Shown: one piece after another, positions 2,843 through 11,564 of the stretch
Numbering within the stretch: the stretch's first letter is position 1
Layout of the letters: every line of letters begins with the position of its first letter
Origin: Acanthamoeba sp. SK_2022b
Taxonomy: Eukaryota; Discosea; Longamoebia; Acanthamoebidae
NCBI GenBank assembly: GCA_027943245.1
Contig: JANDJZ010000060.1
Location: 62,001 to 126,000, forward strand
Direction: 5' to 3'
DNA: 64,000 nt
The notes under the pieces: model-generated
Databases searched by the model: none
What the model was told of the DNA's origin: nothing
Seen by the model: only the letters and a program-made list of their open reading frames with translations
Program-made: the position numbers and the translations under genes

Positions 2843-4648
2843 GGAGAGAGGCGGTACCGGTTGTGTGGAGAAGCCGAAGCTGGTGTAGAGATCGGTCGAG
2901 TTGATCATGGTGCCAAAGAGGTAGAAGTAGACGAATATGTTGATTTCCGAGAGCACCAAGTTCTGCAGGTTGTGGTTGAGGAACCAATGGCCTGTTGGCC
3001 CGCAGGACAAAGAAAACACAACGACAGCAGTGTCAGAACACCAACCACAAACGCAACGGCGAATACGAGGACGGGCTCCGTGGGGGAGGGGGGCTTGGTA
3101 CCGAGCTCGTGAGCGAGAATGGCAAGGATGCCGTCTTTGTCTACCTGCTGCAGGATGGTATCGTACAGCACGATGCGCTTGTTCTTCCAGAAGCCATAGA
3201 AGTAGGCCTGCACCGCCATCCACGGTGAGAATGAGGTCAACACACGTCGTGTCCTCCCTCCCTCCCTCCCAGTTGGGGCGGAGGGGAGCGGAGAGCGGCG
3301 GACATACGTTGCTGTGGCTCGAGCGCGTCGAGCCGTCCACAACGAAGAGGTTGGTCAGCGGAAAGCGGTTCTGCAGCGCGAGCTGGTTGATGGCAGTGCG
3401 GAGCTCGCCCTCCTCCAGCGGAGTGAACGTGTTGAACAGAGGGGCTGCCAAGAGGGAGGCCTCGCTCGTTAGCGAGCCAAACGACTGCACCCACACGTGA
3501 ATGAGAGAGGGGGGTACCGATGACGTGCGGATAGATTGCCATCAGGAAGAAGCTGATGACCGACACGAACAGCCACACATCTGAGTCCACGCGACGCAGC
3601 GAATGGAATGTCAACAACAGACAAAGACAACGACGACACGTGGAAAGAAGGAGGGAGGGAGAGAGGGAGAGAGCGAAGCGCATACAAAAGTAAAAGTGGG
3701 GGCCGCCCCACGCGATGACGTGCAGGATGCCCAGGAGGAGCGGCAGGCCGAGCACGGCCATCAGGCCCAGCGACTTGAGCTGATCGAAGAAGAACAGCTG
3801 CAACAGATGACGGAGGCCGTCGTGAGATGGCAGCATGAGGCGGGCCGACCGAGTCACGGCGGAGCGATTGGGAGAAGGAGAGGAGGTATCGGGGGGGGGG
3901 GGCGACTTACGGAGAGGGTCTGCTTGTTGAAGCCGAACTGCTGCTCGATGACAAAGGTGGAGTAGAGCTCGAAGGGCAGGTGGATGAGCGTCGAGTAGAG
4001 CTCGGCGATGACTACGAACACGATCGACTGCCACATCTCGTTCTCGGCGTCCAGGCCGGCCCACTGCGCCACGTCGGCCGACACTCCCCACAACTTGGCG
4101 TTGTGCGGCGTGTGTTGTTGGTCTACGGTTAGAGCTCGGAGAGGGAGAAAGGGAGGGGGTAGCGAGAGGCGAGCGTGCGCGGAGGAGATGAGGGGCGGGT
4201 ACCCAGGGCAGGGCGCCGAACACCATGAGGGCCAGGCTGTGCACGAACATGACAGTAGATTCGACAAAGTCGAACGAACTGCGGAACGCGGGATGGCGCA
4301 CGTTGGACGCACGAACGCGTAAGCCCCAAGAAACAGAGTGGGCGCACAGGCTGTGCTGCGGCAAGGTGGGGTAGGGGAGAGGGGGGGGGGGTGAGGTGCA
4401 CCTTCGCGCGAGGCCATACTGCTGCGATTTGTCAAAGACCTCCTGCTTGACGGCAGAGGCCACCTCAGCGGGGACGGTACGGACGTGGAAGCAGCGATGC
4501 TGGCGCACGCTCAGCCACGTCTCCACCACAAACGACACCACCGAGAACCCTGCAAAGAGATTACTGTAAATTGACACACGAGAGAGATCAACGCGGGAGG
4601 AGAAGACGCGGAGGGAGTACCAAGGAAGAACTCAAAGTAGGGCAGCAT
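2336..4648 (-). CDS. STE24: CAAX prenyl protease 1 (Ste24/ZMPSTE24 family)
   Basis: This is an integral ER or inner-nuclear-membrane zinc metalloprotease that removes the AAX tripeptide from prenylated CAAX proteins. The start MLPYFEFFLG is at 4648 and the stop TGA at 2336. Landmarks in order are VVETWLSVRQHR, a membrane segment containing the conserved FVIEQQFGFN, the KRIVLYDTIL region, and the zinc motif HELGH, whose Gly codon is split by an intron. HWFLNHNLQNL follows it. The second zinc-ligand region is RHFEYQADAFAV, and the tail has HPTLTERLAAI. All catalytic positions I can see are intact. There are roughly ten short introns, one carrying a TG repeat. The gene converges on the DNA-PKcs-like gene. 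Confidence 0.93.
2783..2838. repeat. (TG)n microsatellite in a STE24 intron
   Basis: About 28 TG units sit inside the intron between the exon that carries the membrane segment after HELGH and the exon beginning VFIGL. Confidence 0.95.
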
Positions 4649-5325: not shown

Positions 5326-8300
5326 ATGAAGTTTGGCAAACATCTACTGTCTTCGGCGCTGCCGGCGTGGCTCGCCTCCTACCTGGACTATAAGGCCCTC
5401 AAGCGAGCAATCAAAGTGCAGGCCCAAACAGGTGCCGTTCAAAAAAAAAACCTTCTTGACCGCACCGCCGGTGTTGCCCCGGCAAGATTACATCGCCGGT
5501 AAAGATCAATTAACGCATTCATTCATGATTGTGCAGGCGACACCAGCCTCTTTGACACTCTGCTTTCGGCCGAGATTAAGAAGGCTGACGCGTTCCACAA
5601 GGCACGAGAGGAAGAGCTGTTGGAGCTCTTTTCCGTTCTCGTCGAAAAGTACTACCTCCATCGAACGCGCACGATTGTGGCGCTGACCGCTTGTCCTGTA
5701 GCCTCACATCGATTGGCGTGTGCCGCATCTCGTGTTTGTTTTTTCCCTTTTCTTTTTATTTGTATTTTTTTATTTGACGGCGTTAGTCGGACTTTTTCTG
5801 GCGGAAGATCAGCGAAGATTGCTTACGGGGTTCATGTTTGCACCAGGTCGGCCAGCAAGCGTCCTGCGGCCGATGAGAAGACCCCTCTGCTCAAGAAGAC
5901 CTCGACCGAAGTTACTACGGACGCGTCCGGCGAGGCATGGCGAAGCATGTCCCGCGAGGAAGTGCTGCAGCGTACGTCGGAGATTAAACGAGCCAGTCTT
6001 TACCCGCGAGCTGCTTTACCAACACGCTCTGTTTTTTGCGGAGCGCAGGCCTGGATGAAGTGGAGGCGTTGGCGACCAACCTGCTCAAGTTCTCTGCGCT
6101 CAACTATACGGGAGTGTCCAAGTCGCTGAAGAAGAGCTATAAGAAGACCGGCATCAGTTCTGAGGATGCGTGGCTGCCCCGTCTTCACCAGACCCACTTC
6201 TTCCTCTCCCGCAAGTGCGATGAGGTCCTCACCAAGACCACGCTGATCCGTCGGGAGGTGCGTACACGCCGGCCTTCTACTGACGCTTTGCCTTTGCTCG
6301 AGCTGTTCAGTCGCCTTCGACTGACACTTTGCCCCCCTCCACGCCTGTTGTCCCTAGCTCAAGGAAGACGACCGGGTGGCGGCGGCCCAGAAGAAGACAG
6401 CGCAGGGCGGCAACGACGGCTCGTCCTCGTCCTCTGCGGGTGACGCCGCTGATGGTCAGGCGCCTTCTCTGTGGGCATTCATTCTGGGCACGTTCATTCA
6501 CCAGATTGCCGACAATGCCAACAAGCTGGTGGTGCCCCTCGTCTACCTGCAGATCACCAGCGTCGGCGTGATGTCCATCCTCACGGGTGTGATGACGCTC
6601 CTCCAAACGTTTGGCACGCTGCCGGCCGGTCGCTGGTCTTCGATGATCGGACCCAAGGCGCTCATCCAGTGGATCACCCTCGGCAGGGCTCTCCTCACCA
6701 CCGCCCTCGCCATCGTCTTCTTCTCCTTCACCACCGGAGCTTTGCCCTCGGGCCTCACGCTCTTCCTCGTGACGTTGATCACCAGCGCTGATTGGTTCAT
6801 TCGAGGTAACCCCCCCCCTTTAGAAGTTGTCTCTGGCCCACACCCAGCTAAATTTAGCACTGCTGTGGCTTGTGGTGCACGCGTTATGTGTTTGCAGGTG
6901 CCATTGATACTGCGCGAAACGTGCTTCCCATGGCCTACTCGCAGAACAGCAAGAAGATGCTGGACGAAATCAACATTCGCTTCTTCACCGTCTTCGAGCT
7001 CGGCGCTCTCGTGGGTCCGGTCGTCCAGGTACGCTCATACTGAGTTCTCGCGACTGGCAACTGCCCCTTCCGTCGCTAAGCAAACGTGTTTTTTTTTTTT
7101 TTTGCGTTGTCGCAGGGCATCATCCTTGCCCTCGGCTGGGGCCTCGCGGTCACCCTGTGGGTGCCCGTCATCTTCCTCGTGCTCAACTTCGTGGTCAACT
7201 TCTGGATCCCCGAAGCCGACTCAAGCAAGTACTCGTTCCTTCAGTCCAAGGACAAGGGAGCCGATGGCGAGAAGAGCAAGAAGAAGCCCAGCCTCCTCGA
7301 GTCCTACTTGCGTGGTATCAAGGAATGCATCGACCCCACCATCGGTGAGCCCCTCCCCTCCTCTCGAGTTTCACCATCAGTCACTGCCAGCTCGGCGCGC
7401 TAACCGCGAGCCTTCTTGTCGCCTCTGGCCGAGGTCAGGTCTCCTCTTCATCCTGGTCATTTTGCTTCAGCTCAACAAGATCCGCTTGGTCATCCCGCAA
7501 ATCATCGCCGTTGAGCTCTTCAATGACGATTCCTACGCTGCCTGGATCTTCAGCACCTACTCGCTGGGTGGTGTCATCGGTACGCTCTTCTCCTTGGCTG
7601 CGCAGCTGTTCTCTTGTTTTTTTATATATATATATAAATATAAATTTAAACCAACGAGACCATACGATCTAATCGCCTTCTGCAGGCAGCGGAGTCTATG
7701 CTCTGGTGAAGAACACCTTCACGCCGGCGACCAACATGGTCTTCGCCTCCACTGGCGTCCTCATCCTCGCCGTCAGTTGGTGGCCCGCTCTGGCTCAGAC
7801 CAGCGTTATCCCGTTCCTCTCGCCCAAGGACGAGTGGCTGCTTTGGGTCCTTTTGGGTAGGCACAGCCCTCTCGCTTTGCTTTGCAGCTCCCCGGTGGGG
7901 CCTCGTGACTGACGCGTGCCGTGTTCATCTGCGTTCGTTCAGGTGCCATGATCTTCTCCATCGTGAAGCAGTCCGCCCGCACTTCGCTCCAGTCCATCTT
8001 CCAGTTCGCTCTCAAGGATTCCAAGTCCGCGGCCGACATCATGGCCCTCAACCGCTTCGGCGTCAACGGCCTGGGTATTCCCTCCCTCTCTTGCACACTC
8101 CCTTGCGGGTGTCGAGGTGCTCGTTTGCTGACTCTACTGCTCTCTCTCTCTCTCTCTCTCTTCATTCAGCCACTGGCCTCAGGTTCGCTCTGGGTCTTCC
8201 TTTCATCTTCCTCTCGGTCACCACGGCCTTCCTCTCGATCTCGGGCGGACTCGCTGTGATCTCGACTGTGATGTTCATCGGCACTTTCCTGTTGACCAAG

Positions 8301-11018
8301 TACGCCGTCGACGCCCTGATTTGCATTCGAGTGTCGCTCGATGCTAACCCCCCGACCTCTCTGTTCTCTTTCTCTCTCAGGCTGCCCATCAACAACCAGA
8401 ACCTCAAGAAGGACAAGGAGGCGGAGAAGGAGAAGGTCGATGACGACAACGTCGATTCCAGCGACGAGCAAGACAAGAAGAGCAAGAAGAGCAAGAAGAG
8501 AAAGGCCTCCAAGAAGCTGAGCAGGCAGCTCTCCGACGAGGAGATCGCGCAGCTCGTCGATATTCCCAAGGACTCGGGCGTTCTCGTCGTCTTCGAAGGT
8601 TGGCCCTCGCTCCCCCCCCCGTGAGTTCAGTGCTCAAGCGTACCACAAGTGGCTGACTCCCTTGCCCTCCCCTGTCCTGCTCCTTCATCACTCGACCAGG
8701 TCTGGACGGTGCCGGCAAGTCTACTCAGGTCGAGCGCCTCAAGTCGTTCATGCAGGGCGAGGGCTACGTGTCGCTGGTCACCACCTGGAGCAAGTCCGCG
8801 CATCACTACGACCTCATCAGGCAGCTCAAGCGACAGACCCCCATGCGGAGCATCCTGCTCACCGTGGTCCAGGCCATGGACTTCCAGCAGATGATCAAGC
8901 AGGACGTCATCCCCGCCCTCCGCTCCAAGAAGGTACCACACCCTCCTCCGTCAACGGTCAACGGGAGAGGCACCGCCGCATCCCCAAAATAACGACGCGT
9001 CGCTAGGTGGTGTTGTGCGATCGCTATTTCTACACGGGCATTGCCCGCGGTGTCGCTCGTGGGCTCAGCAAGACGTGGCTCAGGCAACTCTTCACCGCCG
9101 ACGTGGTGCGCACTGCTCCGTCCTGTTCTGCTCCCTATCTCGGAAGAACCTCCCCCCCTCTCTTAACCTGTTCTTTCTTTTGCATGTCTACTCGGACAGA
9201 ACCTGGAGCCCGATCTTGTGCTGTACCACCAGTGCGTGGCCGCGGTTGCCGTCTCGCGCGTGCTGTCCCGCTCCAACTCGAACACCGCTCAGCTGTCGGA
9301 CGACTCCATGACCCATCGCGTCATTGTCACCCTCAAGTCCGAGAACGGTGCGCTCGCGAGCAGCGCGCGCTCGGCCCACGCGCGCGTTCTGCTCACATTT
9401 TTCGTATTCCGCCAGGCGGAGACCAGAGCAGGGACCTGAGCGCCGCTAGGATCTCGGTGTACGAGGCCGGCTTGGACGTGGCCAACCCCGACCTGGACCC
9501 CTACGACAACTTCGTGTCCTTCCAGACCCGAGTCTCTGCGCAATACGACGCCATGATTCCGGTAAAGCAAGCCCCTCCCCCCTTTTCCCAAGCACTCGAG
9601 GCACCGAGTTGAGGCTGACTCCCTTTGTTCATTGCGTTCGTTTTCGCTTTCGTTTCGCAGGAGTACGGCTTCAAGGTGGTCGACGGCACGCAGGGAAGGG
9701 ACGAGCAGGAGACCAAGGTGAGGAGCTACGTGGAGCCGATGCTGGCCAACCTCAAGAAGGAAGTCTCGCGCCCGTTCAAGACCAACCTCTTCGACAAGAA
9801 CCCCAAGCTCGACAGCGGCAAGAAGGTCAAGGAGTACTACATGACCAAGGACGGCCTGCACTGGTACTTCCGGTACGCACATCTCGTCCCCGCGCCTCAC
9901 ACCTCCCTCCCTCCTCACAAACCGCATCGTCGTGTGTGTTGACCCGTTTTGTTGGTTGGTTGGTTGGTTGGTTGGTTTGTAGAACCATGTACTTCCCGAT
10001 GCGCAACCGCCTGAGCGAGCTGGTCGATCTGTCCAAGGCGCCTCGCGTGTTCCTGCACGGCAACCCGCACATCAACAACTTTGCCCGCTTCCCCGGCGGC
10101 TCGGCCATGATCGACTTTGACCGAACCTGCATCGGGCCCTACCTGTGGGACCTGGTGCGGCTCATGGTCTCCACCGCCTTCAAGCAGGACGGCGAGGACG
10201 AGATCGGCGGCACCTTCCTTCGCCAGGGCGTGCTCCAGCGCCTCAAGACCGGCTACGAGTGGGGCCTCCTCCACAAGGACGAGCCCAGCTCCCACCCGCA
10301 GCGCAACGAGCCCTTCATCTCGCTCGACGAGGCCCCCGCCCCCGCCCACCCGAAGCCGTTCGCCATCCCGCCCGGCGTCAAGGGCCGCCTGTCGATGGAG
10401 GTCCTCCCCTCCCCGGAGCTGCCCCACCACCACGGGTCCCAGCCCGCCCCGCCGCCCCCGCTCGTCCGCGGCCGTTCGGCCTCGGTCGTCTTTGGCGACG
10501 GCGGAAACTCGGACCCCAGCTTCTACCTCAAGCGGCTCGACGAGATGCGCAAGAACCACGCCGACCTCGACGACTCCCTCAGGGAGATGGCCACCACCTA
10601 CCTGGAGGTAACCAACGACCCAAAGACACACACACACACAACTCACCCTTGCAGCCCCTCGGCCGTGTCTCACCAAGTCTTCTCGTCCCGTGTTCTCTCT
10701 GTGTGTAGGCGCTCGGCGCGGAGGGAAACAACTACGTGCTGGTTGAGGCCGGCGTCTCGCCCAACTGGAGCGGACGCACGAGGACCCTGCTGCTCTTCAA
10801 GAAGAAGGACGAATCCCAGAAGGACAAGGAGGTGGCCGACGAAGCGGAGGAGGAGGTGGAGGCGGAGGAAAAGGCTCCGGAGTCGAACGTCGACGGTATG
10901 CTCGTCGACATCAAGCCCGTCCGTACCGATCCCGACGACAAGTGCGTCCCGCCCACCGCCGCTCCAATCCAACCAAGCCATCAGCAAAGAATGTCCCGAC
11001 GTTGACTCTGCGAATGGT

Positions 11019-11049
<31 letters not shown>

Positions 11050-11564
11050 AGGTTCTTCTACAACCCCTTCAAGCCCGATTACGGCAAGCGCATGCTCAAG
11101 GCGCAGGACCTGTACGCCGACGGCTACATCCATCACGCGGCCACTTTCTTCTTCAATGACGTCCAGTACTTTGCCCACGAGGTACTCTACTTATCCCCCC
11201 TCCACACCAATCCACATAACGCTCGCGAGCGGCCGAGCAGCGTGTGAATGGCCGACACGATTATTGACCGACCCGTTCACATTCGTCGTCTTCGTCCGTG
11301 CCCTTGTGATAGATCCCCAACATCAAGGTGGGAGTCAAGCGCCCGTTGACCGAGGCCGACCAGCGCGACCTTCTCTACGCCGTGGGCACGCAGCTGGGCC
11401 GCGGCCACGCCCACTCGATGCAGGACGGCCTCTCCGTCTCGCACATCCTGTTCCACCTCAACTTCTCGTGGCCCAAGATCTGCGAGGCCTCCGAGCGTCT
11501 CAAGGACGAGCTCACCTCGGCCTACCGTAGGTATCTCACCGTCGCCGGGTCGGAGAGCAGCTAA
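5326..11564 (+). CDS. SPX-MFS-thymidylate kinase-like-DUF2252 fusion protein
   Basis: I join 21 exons, all GT-AG, totalling 4,230 nt (1,409 aa plus stop). Residues 1-~180 are an SPX domain, the phosphate/inositol-pyrophosphate sensor: MKFGKHLLSS, YLDYKALKRAI and the lysine patch TGVSKSLKKSYKKTG. Residues ~223-645 hold 12 hydrophobic helices of MFS type with a charged loop after helix 6. A Lys/Glu-rich linker (~646-710) follows. The P-loop GLDGAGKST is at 718-726 and the DRY motif CDRYFYTG at 799-806, then LEPDLVLYH, as in thymidylate kinases. Residues ~930-1409 match DUF2252, an APH-like fold: HGNPHINNF 1022-1030 and MIDFD 1039-1043. The usual HGD Asp is Asn1024. No in-frame Met lies between the last MFS helix and the P-loop, which argues against two genes. 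A likely role is phosphate-responsive transport coupled to phosphotransfer at a membrane, but this is inference. Confidence 0.85.
8139..8160. repeat. CT-rich pyrimidine repeat before a splice acceptor
   Basis: A run of CT units just upstream of the acceptor at 8169. It probably acts as an extended polypyrimidine tract. A similar tract lies at 11026-11049. Confidence 0.85.
9952..9978. repeat. (TTGG)n repeat in an SPX fusion intron
   Basis: About six copies of ttgg lie directly upstream of the acceptor that opens the DUF2252 exon at 9983. Confidence 0.9.
11026..11049. repeat. (CT)n tract before a splice acceptor
   Basis: An uninterrupted CT tract ends directly at the acceptor AG of the penultimate intron of the SPX fusion gene. 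Confidence 0.9.

Follow-up and report, generated by a model that had tools for sequence, protein, structure and literature searches.

A gene for a four-part protein with SPX, MFS transporter, thymidylate-kinase-like and DUF2252 domains in Acanthamoeba

In the genome of Acanthamoeba sp. SK_2022b we found a gene that encodes, in a single reading frame and in this order, an SPX domain, a transporter of the major facilitator superfamily (MFS), a P-loop kinase resembling thymidylate kinases, and a DUF2252 domain. The gene lies in a stretch of 64,000 nucleotides (nt) of contig JANDJZ010000060.1 (positions 62,001 to 126,000, forward strand; assembly GCA_027943245.1), hereafter the window. The same parts recur in a few relatives, and bacteria hold a version without SPX that is found near ppk1 in five of seven loci. 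We consider it possible, if short of probable, that the protein couples a transporter, under the control of SPX, to a phosphotransferase and acts in phosphate or polyphosphate storage.

A single reading frame for four domains

The exon model was rebuilt from the sequence. The coding region starts with an ATG at position 5326 and ends with a stop codon at 11564 of the forward strand; its 21 exons join in consistent phase to 4,230 nt, as the initial annotation of the window had described, and encode 1,409 amino acids (aa) plus the stop, with no internal stop codon. The 20 introns are 68-198 nt long and all have GT-AG borders. All 20 exon junctions align without gaps, with at least seven residues on either side, to a related JGI protein, P0001. 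For intron 14, either of two donors (9103 or 9106) would keep the phase, and the products differ by one residue. The features of the gene are as follows.

5326..11564, forward strand: whole coding region, SPX-MFS-P-loop kinase-DUF2252 (20 of 20 introns GT-AG, phase consistent; junctions ungapped against P0001)
5326..6360, forward strand: SPX domain, residues 1-185, with Y22, K26 and the K139/K142/K143/K146 cluster (PF03105; phmmer to structures)
6463..8390, forward strand: MFS transporter domain, residues 220-648 (PF07690, 40.7 bits; identity to Elusimicrobiota-type MFS)
8391..8561, forward strand: lysine-rich linker, residues 649-705, without methionine (exon table; least conserved part against P0001)
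8562..9762, forward strand: P-loop kinase, thymidylate-kinase-like, ST1543 type, residues 706-960 (PF02223; phmmer to 2plr)
8595..8725, forward strand: Walker A motif EGLDGAGKST, residues 717-726, split by intron 12 (residue numbers placed by the exon table)
9019..9027, forward strand: DRY motif, residues 800-802 (residue numbers placed by the exon table; kept in the clade)
9838..11564, forward strand: DUF2252/APH-like domain, residues 986-1409, and stop codon (PF10009, PF01636)
10056..10082, forward strand: HGNPHINNF, residues 1022-1030, catalytic-loop position (Asn where stand-alone DUF2252 has Asp)

Each module is matched by Pfam above its curated cut-off (given in brackets), and in the order first proposed: SPX with 31.5 bits (27.8) at residues 1-30, MFS_1 with 40.7 bits (33.4) at 226-577, Thymidylate_kin with 63.9 bits (27.0) at 716-861, DUF2252 with 29.8 bits (22.3) at 993-1061, and APH with 34.8 bits (23.2) at 1013-1076.

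The join between transporter and kinase lies within a single exon, number 12 (8381-8598), which covers the end of the MFS, the linker with its many lysines and the first strand of the kinase. No methionine occurs between M636, in the last MFS helix, and M735, while the Walker A motif begins at residue 717; this bears out the methionine-free gap pointed out earlier. A separate kinase gene would therefore lack an ATG ahead of its Walker A motif. Nor did the relatives show the new start between MFS and kinase that the initial annotation had named as a possibility: unbroken frames cross the join in P0001 and in three further proteins described below (P0069, P0070 and P0081), as they do in bacterial proteins. 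That adjacent SPX-MFS and kinase-DUF2252 genes were misjoined is thus scarcely credible, even though the gene model is built from genomic sequence and the donor of intron 12, close to the join, is an atypical GTTGGC.

The assembly that holds the gene comprises 44.9 Mb in 1,129 contigs, and the G+C content of the window is 57.6%. Bacterial contamination at this locus is ruled out by the 20 GT-AG introns. Elsewhere the assembly may include bacterial contigs: C961 (L015) carries an intronless thymidylate kinase and C467 (L038) an intronless PPK1, both of bacterial appearance. An asterisked ARAGORN call of a transfer-messenger RNA at 3324-3929 of the window, in a eukaryotic stretch, is probably false.

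Relatives with and without SPX

In every protein search, scoring was confined to the 7,992-7,997 candidates that had the most words in common with the query. The whole protein gave four matches at E ≤ 0.001 (7,995 candidates scored). P0001 (1,393 aa on a contig of 4,464 base pairs, bp) is 82-84.5% identical to the window protein from end to end. It looks like a spliced transcript, since its frame is uninterrupted whereas the window gene has 20 introns. Among the four domains, the kinase differs least between these two proteins (94.5% identity, against 88.9% for MFS, 81.6% for DUF2252 and 80.5% for SPX), and the linker is the least conserved part (48%).

Used as a profile, the kinase-DUF2252 half of the protein gave 28 matches. 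P0069 (1,234 aa, 3,869-bp contig) and P0070 (1,231 aa, 3,892-bp contig) are 36% and 35% identical to this half, respectively, over 98% of its length, and carry the same four parts as the window protein. Pfam at E ≤ 0.01 lists only the kinase and DUF2252 in both, neither SPX nor MFS_1; their MFS parts are 37-43% identical to those of the window protein and P0001 over more than 400 columns, and a hidden Markov model (HMM) of SPX built from the latter two matches P0069 and P0070 as well as P0068 and P0081. Apart from these and P0001, the HMM found no match among 93 proteins. P0081 (772 aa) has the order SPX-MFS-kinase and breaks off within the kinase, probably at an intron; its SPX scores 18.2 bits, under the Pfam cut-off. 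In P0068 (EukProt GFYU01001947.1, 794 aa) SPX is joined directly to kinase and DUF2252, with no MFS listed; the SPX part of its structure model is of low confidence.

In a 33-row kinase tree, which took in 14 of 44 Elusimicrobiota-type kinases, the kinases of the window protein, P0001, P0069, P0070 and P0081 group together in a clade with support 99/97, and P0068 is unplaced; both of our kinase trees carry long-branch warnings. Judging by SPX and the tree, P0001, P0069, P0070 and P0081 appear to be eukaryotic, and P0068 is assigned to eukaryotes through EukProt. Single-protein scans of genome contigs and viral contigs with the bacterial relative P0004 found no relative, and neither did a profile scan of viral contigs.

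The initial annotation knew of no protein with this layout. It is not unique, as the order without SPX is known in one bacterial phylum. Among 5.39 million open-licence papers, none has the terms 'SPX domain' and 'thymidylate kinase' together; subscription papers lie mostly outside it, so the layout may be published. Titles and abstract openings in the same literature likewise give nothing on such a protein for SPX domains and Acanthamoeba.

The bacterial version is represented by 48 proteins (P0002-P0049), eight of which bear the name Elusimicrobiota or Elusimicrobia. Precomputed Pfam matches list Thymidylate_kin, DUF2252 and MFS_1, and no SPX, in 42 of the 48, so the objection foreseen at the outset, that homologues would always be encoded as two genes, does not hold. 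MFS_1 is absent from P0038, P0044 and P0045, and the kinase from P0040, P0048 and P0049; these last three, together with locus L032 (G089:C85), represent an MFS-DUF2252 variant. P0022 has in addition a fused metallophosphatase domain resembling the separate neighbour gene of other genomes. The window protein and P0004 are 30% identical in a full-length alignment, with three domains in the same order, and the window MFS is 25-26% identical to two Elusimicrobiota-type MFS domains; the predicted model of P0003, of this type, shows the MFS fold.

When a single genome of each species was scanned with a profile, seven loci were recovered, three of them Elusimicrobiota fusions (L008, L009 and L010) and four with stand-alone kinases in tandem, from Omnitrophica (L011), Melainabacteria (L012), Armatimonadota (L013) and Anaerolineaceae (L014). 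Only a minority of the Elusimicrobiota phylum carries the fusion, since six of 198 genomes have a DUF2252 match: four three-part fusions, one MFS-DUF2252 gene (L032) and one stand-alone DUF2252. As bacteria have the transporter-kinase-DUF2252 part, it did not originate in the window genome alone. The window kinase, on a long branch, falls outside the single group (91/89) made up of the 44 Elusimicrobiota-type kinases, so the tree gives no support to gene transfer from within known Elusimicrobiota. P0038, P0040, P0048 and P0049, which show no P-loop by pattern, are left out of the tree and the kinase counts. In the 33-row tree, a clade of all six eukaryotic rows is neither recovered nor rejected (p-AU 0.40), and the same holds for eukaryotes with Elusimicrobiota (p-AU 0.31).

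Many of the proteins P0051-P0067 and P0082-P0091 also join an MFS domain to a thymidylate kinase (from Streptomyces where named; P0084 from Nitriliruptorales). P0051 and P0084 have the scores of canonical dTMP (thymidine monophosphate) kinases, and theirs is an independent fusion.

Gene neighbourhood and functional residues

Seven loci of the Elusimicrobiota phylum that carry the fusion or its kinase-less variant were read: L008, L009, L010 (together with L036 from that genome), L032, L033, L034 and L035. Neighbour families are confirmed by Pfam in L008 and identified elsewhere by tblastn with L008 proteins, and several loci end before every neighbour gene could appear. On the 3' side of the fusion gene lies a metallophosphatase (6/7), then a second MFS gene (6/7) and then PPK1 (5/7); L035 reaches the contig end ahead of any possible PPK1 position. 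CYTH and SixA-type genes are each found near the fusion in four of the seven loci, and PHO4 in three, in one of them just as a fragment of 40 residues at the edge. PhoB-PhoR relatives with at least 74% identity occur in three loci, and L032 has a PhoR relative at 46%. In L010/L036 (complete genome CP096137.1), PPK1, the second MFS and SixA were each matched in two pieces, probably because of sequencing frameshifts. The stand-alone DUF2252 locus (L037) gave no match to the phosphate genes used as queries.

The stand-alone kinases stand beside Ppx/GppA, SixA, CHAD or PhoU genes in two of the four tandem loci. The neighbours are SixA-type and Ppx-GppA genes in L011, and in L014 an ABC-transporter ATPase (read as PstB), PhoU, CHAD, a metallophosphatase and a Ppx-GppA-domain-III/HD gene. 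Archaeal CHAD loci are described as containing SixA, PPX, dTMP kinase and MFS genes (PMC10892726). Other relatives of the kinase are fused to Ppx-GppA domain III (P0074, P0075), inorganic pyrophosphatase (P0076) or NUDIX (P0079); P0080 is another related kinase with a fused domain of one of these kinds (Ppx-GppA domain III/HD, inorganic pyrophosphatase, NUDIX). In all four tandem pairs the Walker A lysine of the second kinase is replaced by arginine (GTDGVGRST in three, GPDNVGRST in L013), and this second copy may be inactive or regulatory. The L013 copy was missed by the P-loop pattern and stands outside the counts given below; P0071, which lacks the kinase start, is in no kinase count.

In the window's genome, an exon-by-exon search, in which absence is a lower bound, gave no match to the VTC catalytic domain PF09359. 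Two PPK1 matches were found; one is an intronless frame of 687 residues, which we take to lie on a bacterial contig (L038), and the other was seen only as an antisense frame (L039, C736). For eukaryotes that lack VTC or PPK1, we know of no settled account of how polyphosphate is made or stored.

SPX domains are regulatory and are central phosphate sensors of eukaryotes. Beyond the Pfam match (PF03105), phmmer aligns residues 1-168 of the window protein to the SPX1 structure and residues 1-179 to that of Vtc4, and the XPR1 structure is also matched. Residues Y22, K26, K139, K142, K143 and K146 have the spacing of Vtc4 Y22, K26, K129, K132, K133 and K136, given as inositol-phosphate-binding residues in PMC9911596, and mutation of the corresponding SPX residues is reported to alter the control of VTC (PMC10167327). 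We predict that the window SPX is a sensor of inositol pyrophosphates. The link to phosphate and polyphosphate drawn in the initial annotation is thus strengthened, both by these residues and by the PPK1 genes near the bacterial homologues.

By sequence and fold, the closest solved kinase is ST1543 of Sulfolobus tokodaii (phmmer to 2plr, E 2.6e-30). The initial annotation had also related the kinase to PPK2. This part of it is not supported, as ST1543 is the nearest relative and PF03976 (PPK2) is not among the Pfam matches to E 1 for the window protein, which speaks against a PPK2 identity; PF03976 scores below its cut-off in P0069 and P0070 and above it in the bacterial relative P0074. Human thymidylate kinase contacts thymine through an arginine (PMC8679000). 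At this position (human R76) all 13 canonical enzymes have arginine, as does none of the 63 kinases of the window-kinase clade, the window protein having phenylalanine. The window kinase is thus unlikely to be a dTMP kinase. The ATP-site motifs are largely kept, with the Walker lysine in 59 and the DRX arginine in 63 of the 63 clade kinases, and both in all six eukaryotic rows.

The window DUF2252 matches both PF10009 and PF01636 and is the sole DUF2252 match found in the genome by an exon-by-exon family search, a lower bound. A stand-alone DUF2252 (G046) has GDAHPEN, with an aspartate at the catalytic-loop position (GDxH), which we take to play the catalytic role it has in APH-type kinases. 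Serine replaces this aspartate in all 48 fused proteins P0002-P0049 (45 by pattern and three by eye, one with Gln before Gly), and asparagine replaces it in the window protein and P0001, as well as in P0068-P0071 and the bacterial P0072. The later asparagine and the D-x-D motif (DWD in two proteins) are retained. Because of the replaced aspartate, the fused DUF2252 is probably a pseudokinase or a repurposed domain. DUF2252 is counted among the Pfam families of the protein-kinase clan (PMC9758233). The fold-match lists are dominated by kinase and MFS, with DUF2252 scarcely represented.

Candidate function and known systems

For the binding of inositol pyrophosphates, the cargo, the acceptor, the membrane and the reaction, we infer the following scheme. 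When phosphate is plentiful, inositol pyrophosphates would bind SPX and lift an inhibited state, as in VTC. The MFS part would then carry a phosphate compound across an internal membrane, such as that of a vacuole- or acidocalcisome-like compartment, or across the plasma membrane. On the cytosolic side the kinase, whose ATP-site motifs are kept and whose thymidylate contacts are lost, would phosphorylate the cargo; alternatively, it could pass phosphate between ATP and phosphate chains. DUF2252 might serve as a nucleotide- or phosphate-binding pseudokinase scaffold. Rather unlikely, although worth stating, is a more specific form of the storage proposal: an SPX-gated single-chain machine in which one cycle would combine the making or loading of a phosphate-rich cargo by the kinase with its transport by the fused MFS, a eukaryotic storage system separate from VTC that would have been made by adding SPX to a transporter-kinase of the bacterial ppk1-locus kind.

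Several observations weigh against a storage role. The cargo of the MFS part cannot be read from its sequence, and its best matches by fold are carriers of the ferroportin-like, vesicular amine/acetylcholine and glucose-6-phosphate types. The structure models hardly inform the arrangement of the domains (pTM 0.42 for P0003). No metallophosphatase, second MFS or PPK1 lies near the kinase-less MFS-DUF2252 gene of L032, and no phosphate gene was seen in the tandem loci L012 and L013, which were searched by blast with genes of the other loci and by their frames rather than with Pfam. P0069 and P0070 have asparagine at the K26 position and score below the Pfam SPX model, and binding of inositol phosphates may not be universal among the SPX-fused relatives. 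Finally, ST1543 has been deposited as a dTMP kinase and shows the same thymine-site substitutions in the alignment; if it truly makes thymidine diphosphate (dTDP), the argument against a thymidylate kinase weakens. Scores of the relatives with the dTMP kinase model TIGR00041, given below, also fall on both sides of its cut-off.

Nucleotide uptake or salvage would have the MFS import a nucleoside or nucleotide and the kinase trap it by phosphorylation, with SPX linking the process to phosphate status. The thymidylate-kinase fold with its ATP-site motifs intact in every eukaryotic row, the nucleoside transporter NupG (an MFS protein) among the fold matches and the existence of Streptomyces-type fusions of MFS with canonical thymidylate kinases all speak for it. 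We nevertheless regard it as unlikely, given the replacement of the thymine-contact arginine throughout the clade and the PPK1, PHO4 and CYTH genes beside the bacterial genes in L008 and, within the extent of the loci, in most of the rest.

Unlikely to the same degree is a regulatory membrane receptor (transceptor), all parts of which would sense the phosphate state with weak or absent catalysis. The regulatory nature of SPX, the lost aspartate of DUF2252 and the bacterial proteins without a recognised kinase fit such a receptor; the strong conservation of the kinase, above that of the other domains, and the Walker lysine and DRX arginine kept in the clade argue against it.

A membrane-bound dTMP kinase, the name carried by several NCBI and JGI records, is improbable. 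P0006 (86.0 bits) and P0068 (104.2) do pass the dTMP kinase model TIGR00041 (cut-off 83.25), and the deposited name of ST1543 points the same way, but P0001 (71.2) and the stand-alone L011 kinase (80.9) fall below the cut-off and the thymine-contact arginine is gone. Moreover, the two genomes tested for this, the window's and a complete Elusimicrobiota chromosome, each contain separate thymidylate kinase matches with better scores, and the gene surroundings are those of polyphosphate metabolism.

The storage proposal is a testable candidate: SPX sensor, transporter and kinase lie together in one chain across divergent sequences, and the bacterial version lies near ppk1. It would also bear on the databases, in which 'dTMP kinases' with substitutions of the ST1543 type may instead serve phosphate or polyphosphate metabolism.

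By its mode of working, the nearest known system is VTC, which likewise combines an SPX sensor, phosphotransfer and membrane passage in one machine (PMC9911596); for the window protein this combination is predicted from sequence. Its SPX matches Vtc4 in Y22, K26 and the lysine spacing, but the protein is not a VTC member: the PF09359 catalytic domain is missing from its Pfam list, and a P-loop kinase and an MFS stand in its place. Elusimicrobiota proteins named 'dTMP kinase' (P0006, P0032) have the same MFS-kinase-DUF2252 order without SPX. ST1543 (PDB 2plr, 4nzy, 4rzx, 5h70) shares the thymine-site replacements and is a stand-alone chain of ~213 residues with neither MFS nor DUF2252. The Streptomyces-type fusions P0051 and P0084 are alike in joining MFS and kinase, but no DUF2252 is listed for them, their kinase is canonical (TIGR00041 170 and 178 bits), and they are very distant in the kinase tree. 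The plant PHT5/VPT1 proteins are not known to extend beyond the MFS domain. They too unite SPX and MFS in one chain (PMC4821872), in the order SPX then MFS_1 that we find in the window protein, where kinase and DUF2252 follow the MFS. PPK2 enzymes are P-loop kinases thought to share ancestry with thymidylate kinases (PMC8776046); their family, PF03976, is unlisted for the window protein, whose kinase is instead of the ST1543 type.

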